Positions 1-4,003 of a stretch of 10,567 bases of DNA are shown piece after piece. A program made the position numbers and the translations under genes. Below the pieces are notes generated by a model. It was not told the DNA's origin and did no database searches. It was given only the letters and a program-made list of their open reading frames with translations. Source of the stretch: a bacterium (lineage in GTDB: Bacteria; Blakebacterota; Blakebacteria; Blakebacterales; Blakebacteraceae); contig JALGWK010000031.1 in the NCBI GenBank assembly GCA_025774205.1, positions 1 to 10,567 on the forward strand, written 5' to 3'. Position 1 is the first letter of the stretch. Each line of letters begins with the position of its first letter.

Positions 1-475
1 GCTCAACCGTATCCCGCTCCTCGTAATTGGCGGCATAATCTGCCTGCGCCTGCAGGTAGTTGGCCTGGGCTGTCTCCAGGGTCAGCTGGTAATTCTCCTG
101 ATCGAGCTCCATCAGGACCGCCCCTTCCCGGACGAAATCCCCCTCCTTCACCCGGAGCCGGTTCAGGACACCGTTGACCTGGCTGACCACCCCGACCTGT
201 CTCAGTGGCTGGGCCCGCCCCTCGGCGTGGACCGTCTGGATCAGGGTCCCCTCCACCGTGGGAGTGGCCCGCACCGGGATCGGGTCGAGGCCCCGGAAGA
301 GCCCTTCGACCGCCTCAGCCCGGTCTCCGGTATTCGCCTGGGCGGCGCCGGTGGTGGTGCCTTCGGCTTCTTCATCTTTCTCCTTCTGGATCCGGAGATA
401 CACCGCGGTCCCGACTGCTCCGAGGATCACGACGATGAGGAGGAACTTCAGCAATGACTTAGCGCGCAGTGCCAT
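1..475 (-). CDS. HlyD/RND-type efflux periplasmic adaptor (membrane fusion protein), N-terminal part
   Basis: Periplasmic adaptor that would link an inner-membrane transporter to a TolC-type outer-membrane channel. The 158 codons visible run off the left edge, so the C-terminal half is missing. Seen: a basic start (MALRAK) followed by one hydrophobic segment at about residues 8-26, fitting an uncleaved inner-membrane anchor; a polar Glu/Thr/Gly-rich linker (about 31-55); then a beta-rich stretch leading into a biotinyl-lipoyl-like half motif at about 95-126 (GVVSQVNGVLNRLRVKEGD, then GAVLMELD). The Gln/Ala-rich stretch from about 128 (ETAQANYLQAQADY) is the beginning of the alpha-helical hairpin. 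The ATG at 475 has a good ribosome binding site (AGGAAAGGGA at 481-490, spacer of 5). It lies 65 nt beyond the stop that the neighbouring tolC-like gene would have in its repaired frame, so the two are probably co-transcribed. The substrate cannot be told; the transporter is expected left of the window. Confidence 0.9.
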   Translation of the reverse strand, partial: MALRAKSLLKFLLIVVILGAVGTAVYLRIQKEKDEEAEGTTTGAAQANTGDRAEAVEGLFRGLDPIPVRATPTVEGTLIQTVHAEGRAQPLRQVGVVSQVNGVLNRLRVKEGDFVREGAVLMELDQENYQLTLETAQANYLQAQADYAANYEERDTVE

Positions 476-520
476 CGGTATCCCTTTCCTGATTCGGTCT
501 CACTATAGTTAAAGCGAATA

Positions 521-2221
521 TCATGTCCGTTCCGTGTGACTCAGCCGTTCTCCCCGAATGGTACCGGGGGGGTGGTCCGCTGTCTGACCGGCTGGTTCGT
601 TACCCAGTCCCACATGGTGATCTCTTTCAGGTCGGCCTTGGCTATCTCGTAATTGATCAGGGCCTGGAGATGACTTGTCTGGGTCGCTTGTCTGGGTCGT
701 GTTCCAGTCGTCCTGGGCCCGCAGCAGTTCGGTCAGGGTGATGTTCCCCCGTCCGTACTGCTGCTGGCTGATCCGGTAACTCGTCTGGGCGATCTGCATC
801 AGCTCCCCGAGGATCACCAGCTGCTGCATGGCACCCTCAACTGCCCGCACCGTGTTGATCACGGTGACGGCCAGGTCGGCCTCGATCTCGGCGATCCGTC
901 GTTCCTGCTCCTGGATGACGGCGACCTGCCGCTGGACGCGGGAGGCGTTGAGGCCCGAGTCGAAGATCGGCACCGATAGGGTCATCTGGATGTTCGTGAA
1001 GGGAGTTCGATTGTCCGCGTCGAGGGCTTCGGTGAGATGCTTTCCCCAGGAATCCGTGTAACCGAGGCCTCCAAGGGTTGAATTCCCGGTGAGGGCGAAA
1101 GAGCCGTTGAGCGCCAGATTGGGACGGCCGGTGCTCCTGGTCTGTTTCAAGGTGAGCTCGTTCCGTTCCAGCTGGATCTCTTCCTGGTGCACATCGGAGC
1201 GGTTCTCTCTGGCCCGCTCCAGGGCGAGGTCCACATCTACCTCGATCGGTTCGTACTCCAGGGTGGATTCGACCCAGACGACGGTCTCGATGGGGAGGCC
1301 CATGGCCCGGTTGAAGACATACCGGCGACGCTCCAGTTCGACCTTTTCCAATTCCAGGTTGCTCAGGCTCCTGGTGCGCTCCACCCGGAGGGTGAGCACT
1401 CCCACCTCGTTGCTGCGCGCCGACTGGTACTGGCGGCGGCCGGTCGCGAGGTTCAGCTCCGCCTGCTGGAGCCGCTCGGCCTGTATCTCCACCTGCCGCT
1501 GCTGCTGGAAGAGATTGTAGAAATCCTGGCTGACCTGGTTGATCTGATTCAATTCGTTCTCGGTATAACGGAGACGCTCACTCTCGAACGAGATTTCATT
1601 TTCCCGGAGGTTGCCCTTGATCTGGTTGTACTGGAAGAGGGGCTGATTGAAACCGATGGCAGCGTAGGGCTGCATTGACCGGTTCTTCGACTGCAGGTCG
1701 TTGGGTAGATCCCGGATCCCCTGGTAGCCGCTCATCTGGAGGGCGACCCACACCGTCCCGTCGGTGATGAGGGGCTGGATGGCCTGAAGGCTCAGATCAG
1801 CGGAGATGGAGTTATTCCGCATATAGACCAGTTCCGGAGGCACTCCGATCAGGTCCGCATTGATCCGCTGATCGATGGTCGGCAGACCATTCGATCTGAG
1901 ACTGACGCTGGTCCGGAGACTCCGGCGGGCCGACTCCAGATAATAGGCCGTCTGCAGGTGCCTCTGCTGCAGCACGAAGATCCCGAACGATCTGTCGAGG
2001 GCGATGTCGATGGCGCCCGGCAAGCCGATGATGAGGTCGGCCTCCTCCCGGGTTGGCACGACCACCTCCGCCTGCTCTTCCTGCTGTTGGAATAGTGACA
2101 GCCGTGCGGCAGCGTCTGCTGTTGATGGAATACCGGCAACTACGGTCACCAGCAACGCAAGGGGCAGGAACCGGACCGCTCCCCCCGGGAAGCGGTCTTG
2201 AAGCGAAGAGACATTCCGCAC
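521..2221 (-). CDS. TolC-family outer-membrane efflux protein (paralogue 1), C-terminus frameshifted by a 13-bp tandem duplication
   Basis: Outer-membrane/periplasmic channel of a tripartite efflux or type I secretion system. As it stands the frame encodes 566 residues. It has a signal peptide (hydrophobic core at about residues 17-30, probable cut after the Ala run near 36-39) and two long alpha-helical repeats typical of the OEP family. Shared landmarks with the neighbouring paralogue are AIDIAL, YLESARR, QPLFQYN, FNRAMGLP, HLTEA, LSVPIFD and LTELLRAQ. The GTG start at 2219-2221 is chosen because AAGGAGT lies 6 nt upstream and the signal peptide follows at once. After residue 512 (NTTQTS) homology stops. 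An exact 13-bp tandem duplication at 674-699 shifts the frame, adding a 54-residue Pro/Arg/Asp-rich tail. Deleting one copy gives a 555-residue protein ending in HLQALINYEIAKADLKEIT and so on to a TGA at 541-543, collinear with paralogue 2. The last helix of the second repeat is lost, so the product may not fold. It may be a pseudogene, a phase-variable OFF state or an assembly error. Confidence 0.88.
   Translation of the reverse strand: MRNVSSLQDRFPGGAVRFLPLALLVTVVAGIPSTADAAARLSLFQQQEEQAEVVVPTREEADLIIGLPGAIDIALDRSFGIFVLQQRHLQTAYYLESARRSLRTSVSLRSNGLPTIDQRINADLIGVPPELVYMRNNSISADLSLQAIQPLITDGTVWVALQMSGYQGIRDLPNDLQSKNRSMQPYAAIGFNQPLFQYNQIKGNLRENEISFESERLRYTENELNQINQVSQDFYNLFQQQRQVEIQAERLQQAELNLATGRRQYQSARSNEVGVLTLRVERTRSLSNLELEKVELERRRYVFNRAMGLPIETVVWVESTLEYEPIEVDVDLALERARENRSDVHQEEIQLERNELTLKQTRSTGRPNLALNGSFALTGNSTLGGLGYTDSWGKHLTEALDADNRTPFTNIQMTLSVPIFDSGLNASRVQRQVAVIQEQERRIAEIEADLAVTVINTVRAVEGAMQQLVILGELMQIAQTSYRISQQQYGRGNITLTELLRAQDDWNTTQTSDPDKSSPGPDQLRDSQGRPERDHHVGLGNEPAGQTADHPPGTIRGERLSHTERT
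674..699. repeat. Exact 13-bp tandem duplication (two copies of CTTGTCTGGGTCG)
   Basis: Copy 1 is 674-686 and copy 2 is 687-699, identical and directly adjacent. The unit length is not a multiple of three, so the duplication shifts the reading frame of the minus-strand TolC-like gene. The equivalent place in the neighbouring paralogue (NNTQT followed by AFLSAL) has a single copy of the corresponding codons. The two-copy state is therefore probably derived. Tandem repeats of this kind can expand or contract by replication slippage. Confidence 0.95.
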
Positions 2222-2227
2222 GGGAAT

Positions 2228-2234
2228 ACTCCTT
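2228..2234 (-). promoter_or_regulatory. Ribosome binding site deciding the GTG start of TolC paralogue 1
   Basis: On the minus strand AAGGAGT lies 6 nt before the GTG at 2221. No ATG is placed as well, and the codons after this GTG encode a signal peptide, so the site fixes the start. Confidence 0.8.
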
Positions 2235-2241
2235 ATATGTT

Positions 2242-2255
2242 GCCCGGCGCCGGGC
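2242..2255. repeat. 14-bp perfect palindrome GCCCGGCGCCGGGC
   Basis: A self-complementary sequence of only G and C, 7 nt upstream of the ribosome binding site of TolC paralogue 1. It could fold as a short stem in the mRNA leader or be a dyad binding site; no function is shown by the sequence. Confidence 0.6.
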
Positions 2256-2288
2256 GCCGGCGTGAGACACTCGACCGATTCTGTCAGC

Positions 2289-2326
2289 CGATCAGGAGCG
2301 CTGTCCGGAACAGACGTTCCTGATCG
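2289..2326 (-). terminator. Long intercistronic hairpin between the two tolC-like genes (possible attenuator or terminator)
   Basis: The arms CGATCAGGA (2289-2297) and TCCTGATCG (2318-2326) are perfectly complementary. Further inside, CTGT (2301-2304) pairs with ACAG (2310-2313), leaving a 5-nt loop, a single-base bulge and one weak pair, for about 15 bp in all. It begins 12 nt after the stop of paralogue 2 on the minus strand. No T-run follows in the direction of transcription, so a classical intrinsic terminator is not supported. Partial termination, mRNA 3'-end protection or differential expression of the two genes would all fit. Confidence 0.45.
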
Positions 2327-2338
2327 TCAACGGTTACT

Positions 2339-4003
2339 TCAAATTCCCCCGCCTCTGGTGAACGCAGTCGGAGGCGTGGTCCGGCGTGTCACCGCCTGAT
2401 CCGTCTCCCAGTCCCAGAGAGTGATTTCCTTCAGGCTCGCCTTGGCCCGCTCGTAACCGATGAGCGCGCTCAGGAAGGCGGTCTGGGTGTTGTTGTACTG
2501 AGTCTGTGACCGGAGCAGATCGGTGATGGTGATCTCACCCCGATCGAACCGGGTCCGGTCGATCTCGTAGGTACGCTCGGAAATTACCTGGTTCTGCACC
2601 TGGATCTCCATGCTCCGCTTGGCGGCCTCAACAGATCGTACGCGGTTGATGACGTCTCTTTTCAGGTTCTCTTCGGTCTCGGTCATCCTGCGTTGGGCTG
2701 TCGCCAGACTCACCATCGACCGCTCGACGCTGAGCCGGTTGCGTCCCCAGTCGAAGATGGGGATCGAGAGGGTCAGGGAGACATTCGTGTTGTTGTTACT
2801 GTTGTCTCCGTTGAAGGCTTCCGTGAGGTGGTCCCGCCACGAATCGTCGATTCCCAGGTCACTCAGGGTCGAGGTTCCGGTGATGTCATAGCCGGCGTTG
2901 ATCTGCAGGTCGGGGCGCCCCCGGCTCCTGGTCTGGGCGAGGCTCATCTCCGACTGCTCGATGCTGATCTCCTGCAGTCGGATGTCAGCGCGGTTCTGGA
3001 AGGCGAGTTCCAGGGCCCGGTCCATGTCGACCTCGATCGGACGGTACTCTTCGCTGGCATCCACCCAGATCTCAGTCTCCAGGGGGAGCCCCATCGCCCG
3101 GTTGAAGGTGAACTGCTGCTGCTCGTGGGCGTTCTTCTGCTGCTCGAGCGCGTCGAGGTCATTGGCCCAGTTCACCTCGAGGCTCATCTTCTCCACCTCG
3201 GCTATCAGCCCGGCGGAGTATTTGCGCTGACCTGTATTGTAGTTGGTCTCGCTCAACTGGAACGACTTGCCCAGGTTCTCCAGTCGTTTCTGAGCCTGGA
3301 AGAGGGCGTAGAACTGGTTCGTGATCATGTTGATCTGGCCAAGTTCGCTCTCGGTGTAGGTCCGGTCGAGTTGTTCGAAATTCAGCTCGGCGTTCCTGAG
3401 CGAAGCCTTGATGTCGTTATACTGAAAGAGCGGCTGGGTGAAGTTGATCCCCACGTTGGGCTGGATCGACCGGTTCTCAACCGGCTCGCGACCGCCCGAG
3501 AGTTCGTTGAACGACTGGTTTCCGCTCAAGCGGGCACTCAGTGAAATCGACCCGTTGGTGATCAGCGGCTGGCTGACACTGATCCTGCCGTTGAAGTTGG
3601 TCCGTCCCGATCTCAGGTAGTTGATCTCCTGCTGGCCGGTATCGGGATTGTAATAGAAGGTCGGACTGATCCCCTCGCTGATGCTGGGGATGGTGCTGCT
3701 GAAGTCGATCCGCGTCTTCAGCTGCCGCCTGGCCGACTCCAGGCTGTAGGCGCTTGACAGGTAGCTCTGCTTCAGCTGGAAGACGCTGAATGACTCTTCA
3801 AGGGCAATATCGATTGCCTCGTTGAGGGAGAGCACCAGTTCGGCGTCAGCCCGGGTGAAGAGGTCGAGCTCGGTGGTCACGATCTCCTCCTGCTCCTGTG
3901 TCCCCGTCTGGGCAGTGGCCGTGACAAGGGGAAGCATGAGCAGGAGAACGGCAGACAGGGCTCCGGAGGCCTTCAGTCTGATGTTCGTGTAGAATGACAT
4001 CAC
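2339..4003 (-). CDS. TolC-family outer-membrane efflux protein (paralogue 2), intact
   Basis: Outer-membrane channel component of a tripartite efflux or type I secretion system, expected to trimerise and dock onto a periplasmic adaptor such as the one at 1-475. It encodes 554 residues (553 from the second codon). The signal peptide has a hydrophobic core at about residues 13-29 and a likely cut near ATA|Q at 30-32; there is no lipobox. The two OEP repeats are visible, with AIDIALEESF and YSLESARRQ in the first helix, QPLITNG and QPLFQYND in the strand region of repeat 1, FNRAMGLPLET before repeat 2, and SLTLSIPIFDWG plus ITDLLRSQTQYNNTQT near the end. The start is either GTG 4003 or ATG 4000, both served by AAAGGAA at 4009-4015 with spacers of 5 or 8. 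It is the first gene of the leftward cluster and the probable parent or sister of paralogue 1 by tandem duplication. The C-terminus (residues after 505) is collinear with the repaired frame of paralogue 1. Confidence 0.95.
   Translation of the reverse strand: MMSFYTNIRLKASGALSAVLLLMLPLVTATAQTGTQEQEEIVTTELDLFTRADAELVLSLNEAIDIALEESFSVFQLKQSYLSSAYSLESARRQLKTRIDFSSTIPSISEGISPTFYYNPDTGQQEINYLRSGRTNFNGRISVSQPLITNGSISLSARLSGNQSFNELSGGREPVENRSIQPNVGINFTQPLFQYNDIKASLRNAELNFEQLDRTYTESELGQINMITNQFYALFQAQKRLENLGKSFQLSETNYNTGQRKYSAGLIAEVEKMSLEVNWANDLDALEQQKNAHEQQQFTFNRAMGLPLETEIWVDASEEYRPIEVDMDRALELAFQNRADIRLQEISIEQSEMSLAQTRSRGRPDLQINAGYDITGTSTLSDLGIDDSWRDHLTEAFNGDNSNNNTNVSLTLSIPIFDWGRNRLSVERSMVSLATAQRRMTETEENLKRDVINRVRSVEAAKRSMEIQVQNQVISERTYEIDRTRFDRGEITITDLLRSQTQYNNTQTAFLSALIGYERAKASLKEITLWDWETDQAVTRRTTPPTAFTRGGGI

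Follow-up and report, generated by a model that had tools for sequence, protein, structure and literature searches.

Short exact tandem duplications across a metagenome-derived draft genome point to probable assembly error behind a frameshifted TolC-family gene

In the window (the whole 10,567-nucleotide stretch of DNA analysed here), a 13-bp unit that stands twice in direct succession, without mismatch, breaks the reading frame of a gene for a TolC-family outer membrane protein. We observed the duplication, the resulting frameshift, a conserved native C-terminus in the other frame, a single copy of the unit in a relative of the same genus, and an excess of the same type of lesion throughout the assembly. 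The duplication is probably one case of an assembly-wide class of small indel errors.

Results

Direct reading of the sequence confirms the original prediction of an exact 13-bp tandem duplication, CTTGTCTGGGTCG x2, at 674–699 (no strand assigned), with the copies abutting at 674–686 and 687–699. This pair is the window's sole exact two-copy tandem repeat with a period of at least 9 bp, and because chance alone predicts only about 4e-4 such pairs with a period of at least 13 bp in a sequence of this size, it is not a coincidence. A comparison of the locus in related genomes had been called for, and it shows that G001, a genome of the same genus (JALGVQ010000017.1), has one CTTGTCTGGGTCG copy and a continuous native frame. 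All 13 gap positions in the alignment between the window and G001 fall at the duplication site. The repeat is private to the present assembly and is not conserved in G001, G002 or G003.

The interrupted gene, paralogue 1 (521–2221, minus strand), is an open reading frame of 566 aa as assembled and matches the OEP/TolC family (PF02321) with 107.5 bits against a curated cut-off of 22. The duplication was predicted to shift its frame, and we found that similarity to relatives breaks off at residue ~511–512, with the native end lying in the other frame. There, positions 541–672 (minus strand) encode the 43 residues HLQALINYEIAKADLKEITMWDWVTNQPVRQRTTPPVPFGENG and a TGA stop at 541–543, while the G001 homologue runs uninterrupted to the terminus HLQAMIDYELAKADLKEITMWDLETNQPVTQQTTPPVPFGKNG. 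Both predicted figures, the stop at 541–543 and a substitute tail of 54 residues, were reproduced. A native-type ending is present in all four aligned homologues, namely paralogue 2, which the repaired end had been said to resemble, one further paralogue in this genome and two proteins from the family; conservation of the 54-residue tail, which would have marked it as the native C-terminus, was seen in none of them. Across the native-frame stretch, 15 of the 23 differences from G001 fall at third codon positions, as do four of the five from C164, a contig of the same bin.

Given the homologue ends, the G001 frame and the third-position bias of the native frame, the tail of about 54 residues (521–685, minus strand) is a frameshift product; by these sequence comparisons it is not native, and the native C-terminus is in the other frame. 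The reverse reading, with the tail as the native C-terminus and the homologues as the exceptions, is scarcely credible. The shifted-frame DNA of G001, C164 and G003 does resemble the tail, but this follows from DNA homology alone, and the reading conflicts with the continuous G001 frame, with the endings of all four homologues, with a TAG stop inside the shifted frame of G003, and with the position of the C164 differences at third positions of the native frame. We regard it as ruled out by the one-copy relative G001.

The frameshift leaves the second OEP repeat incomplete, with the PF02321 match of paralogue 1 reaching 165 of 187 profile positions compared to 185 of 187 in paralogue 2, and the missing remainder is encoded in the other frame. 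Solved TolC chains match the family profile to about position 530, equivalent to TolC residue 397 of 428, which is beyond the point of frame loss. Judged by profile coverage, the assembled paralogue 1 would have lost its function.

Paralogue 1 lies between an intact TolC-family paralogue 2 of 554 aa (2339–4003, minus strand; open reading frame and profile match) and an RND-type periplasmic adaptor, identified by an RND_mfp match, whose N-terminal part (2–475, minus strand) is cut by the contig end. Contig C164 holds a fuller copy of the adaptor and an RND-permease-like open reading frame. The region 521–4003 places two tandem TolC-family paralogues upstream of a single RND adaptor, and further members of the same TolC family are dispersed across the genome. 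The gene carried by the living organism most likely contains the unit once and would encode a conventional TolC-family subunit that forms the channel of an RND tripartite efflux pump.

The window shares its positions 1–619 with the end of C164 (L039:1860–2591) at about 94% identity, which shows that the bin contains two or more strain haplotypes of the locus. C164 stops 55 bp short of the 13-bp repeat and so gives no second haplotype across it; a search for a second haplotype at the other duplicated sites found none. The two haplotypes also differ by a hairpin-rich element of 114 bp (L039:2361–2474 in C164, corresponding to window positions 501–503; DNA fold z = -2.97), which separates the adaptor gene from the stop of paralogue 1 in one haplotype and is absent from the other. 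Three full copies of this element, at 92–100% identity, are present in the genome; relatives of it at 79–84% occur in G002 and G003, and none in G001. An Rfam scan of the window and L039, the element included, returned no match. The element may represent a mobile repeat resembling a MITE or REP.

Our survey for similar lesions covered 397 kb of unmasked sequence from the present assembly, counting the window, with about 311 kb of sequence from three relatives as a control. The assembly is metagenome-derived, fragmented into 527 contigs and 86% complete. It contains 18 exact tandem duplications with a period of at least 10 bp, compared to two in the relatives; leaving the window out gives densities of 4.4 per 100 kb here and 0.66 per 100 kb in the relatives (binomial p = 0.002). 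At least eight duplications besides that of paralogue 1 frameshift otherwise normal coding sequence. They affect a peptidase C69 (13 bp, with the halves of the family profile meeting at the duplication and G001 exactly 13 bp shorter), RecJ (40 bp, G001 exactly 40 bp shorter), a MacB/FtsX permease (17 bp), a Wzy_C-like membrane protein (10 bp), a P-loop kinase-like protein (19 bp), GspE/PilB (25 bp), CbiO (22 bp) and, as the weakest case, a short cNMP-binding-like open reading frame without a family match (11 bp). An acyl-CoA-dehydrogenase-like gene carries an in-frame 27-bp copy that is missing from G001. Some of the 18 are arrays that are intergenic, of low complexity or within repeat proteins (L066, L074, L139, L180:2369 and L083), and these were not scored as frame-breaking. 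A search for scaffolding traces, in the form of N-gaps with duplicated flanks, found N runs only as whole contigs shorter than 3 kb.

Imperfect and apparently older tandem repeats are also somewhat commoner here than in the relatives. Among near-exact tandem repeats of this assembly, the imperfect ones mostly have a period that is a multiple of three and the exact ones mostly do not, a division that would fit older, selected duplications standing beside new or false ones.

The original prediction raised the possibility of an ON/OFF switch, in which the tandem pair loses or regains a copy by slippage and thereby toggles the efflux channel. A surface-exposed export component such as this one is a usual kind of target for phase variation, and here a frame-altering repeat (13 bp x 2) does lie in coding sequence, where one of the two exact copies can be lost through slippage. 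Bacteria are known to carry frameshift indels that can revert (PMC8339072). Nevertheless, there are only two copies of the unit, G001 has a single copy and no tract, the other homologues likewise keep the native frame and lack the repeat, and the repeat is not conserved in G002 or G003 either. The junction offers no homology from which a lost copy could re-form, so that a rare new event would be needed, and the same lesions occur in RecJ, GspE, lgt and other unrelated genes that are not plausible switches. We consider slippage switching at this site a very remote prospect; nothing supports a dedicated switch, which is very unlikely, and this part of the prediction is not upheld.

Slippage leaves a recognizable trace, a short homology flanking the ancestral unit that extends the periodic run. 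At eleven duplication sites, the excess junction homology is 0 or 1 bp each, summing to 3 bp compared to 7.9 bp expected from random flanks alone. Because junction homology is so short, the duplications do not look slippage-born, and on this sequence evidence slippage is not a likely origin. Joining two ends while retaining both copies of their overlap would produce such junctions. End-joining repair in living cells would give the same pattern, and a real mutation is therefore retained as a rival explanation.

Genes expected to be indispensable are broken as well. A six-frame coding model counts 10.6 likely frameshifts per 100 kb here compared to 4.3 in relatives, figures that are noisy, include some gene junctions and serve for this contrast alone. 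In most bacteria studied, lgt and cmk are each essential or close to it. An exact 7-bp tandem duplication splits the sole lgt match in the assembly (L124:4892–5747), and a 50-bp deletion breaks the sole cmk match (L175:464–1136). G001 and G002 have intact versions of the two genes; at 86% completeness, further copies of either could be missing from the bin. A real mutation is unlikely as a general explanation because both genes are broken within one sample. The two broken genes are also, in themselves, a sign of low base-level reliability of the assembly.

Discussion

We favour an assembly error because defects of the same kind are scattered through the draft genome and reach even the sole matches to lgt and cmk. 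Two marks of an artefact, a lesion type overrepresented in the rest of the assembly but not in its relatives and damage to genes that should be indispensable, are both present (18 duplications in 397 kb compared to two in the roughly 311 kb of relatives; lgt and cmk, at 86% completeness). The error class would comprise exact short tandem duplications and short deletions arising in a fragmented, strain-mixed metagenome assembly. Overlapping sequence ends were probably joined without merging the overlap, which would leave an exact tandem copy. We infer both that the lesions are errors and that an assembly step of this kind is responsible.

Three points weigh against an assembly error. With k above 26, a de Bruijn assembler should generate so short a repeat only if reads support it or a join is faulty; second copies of lgt and cmk may be present but unseen; and the commoner imperfect repeats would fit a real process. 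The principal rival is a recent, real loss-of-function duplication, fixed or segregating in the strain and tolerated thanks to the adjacent intact TolC paralogue, which we judge to be unlikely but with some real chance of being correct. It agrees with a gene that is otherwise intact, with downstream DNA that keeps the native-frame constraint, as a very recent event predicts, with the adjoining intact paralogue and with the imperfect tandem repeats found in the assembly too. It gains further from the fact that short-read assemblers seldom invent repeats below their k-mer length. It is at odds with a lesion of the same type in the only lgt match and a deletion in the only cmk match, and with lesions that are exact, lack junction homology and are nearly absent in the sampled relatives. 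Under this rival, the duplication may be one product of a burst of small duplications and deletions confined to the strain. That the lineage has undergone a genome-wide burst of real short tandem duplications and deletions without junction homology, the lesion in paralogue 1 among them, has a slim chance of being correct; repair of the end-joining type might leave such lesions, and if they are real, they would indicate an unusual mutational process. Of the two fallbacks offered alongside the switch, the assembly artefact is thus the favoured one and a fixed pseudogene mutation the less favoured, based on the lesion excess and the broken lgt and cmk genes.

Single frameshifts in fragmented metagenome assemblies are consequently risky to interpret as switches or pseudogenes. 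Counting the same lesion across the assembly and its relatives, together with an inspection of genes that should be indispensable, is a simple discriminator.

Known systems resemble parts of this case. Bacterial genome assembly can create spurious pseudogenes (PMC11017572), and the likeness lies in genes that are intact but for one frameshifting lesion, in a higher number of them than close relatives show and in the draft state of the assembly; that work did not assess metagenome-assembled genomes, and the lesions here are mainly exact short tandem duplications and short deletions. Unmerged overlaps are a documented source of false duplications (PMC2864568), where the unmerged ends of mixed haplotypes likewise produce a false adjacent duplicate, but in vertebrate diploid assemblies and with much longer duplicates. 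Neither study covers a case exactly like the present one. In Mycobacterium tuberculosis, reversible frameshift indels and frameshift scars have been described (PMC8339072), and there too a reading frame is lost to a short indel that could revert; that study used reads from thousands of isolates, whereas the present case is a single unverified consensus, with no restored state seen within the species. The protein itself shares the OEP domain of TolC-family outer membrane efflux proteins (PF02321) such as E. coli TolC (1ek9), and its locus, like theirs, combines it in an operon with genes for an RND adaptor and an RND-permease-like protein. It departs from these systems in the two paralogues arranged in tandem and, as assembled, in a paralogue 1 that lacks the end of its second OEP repeat.
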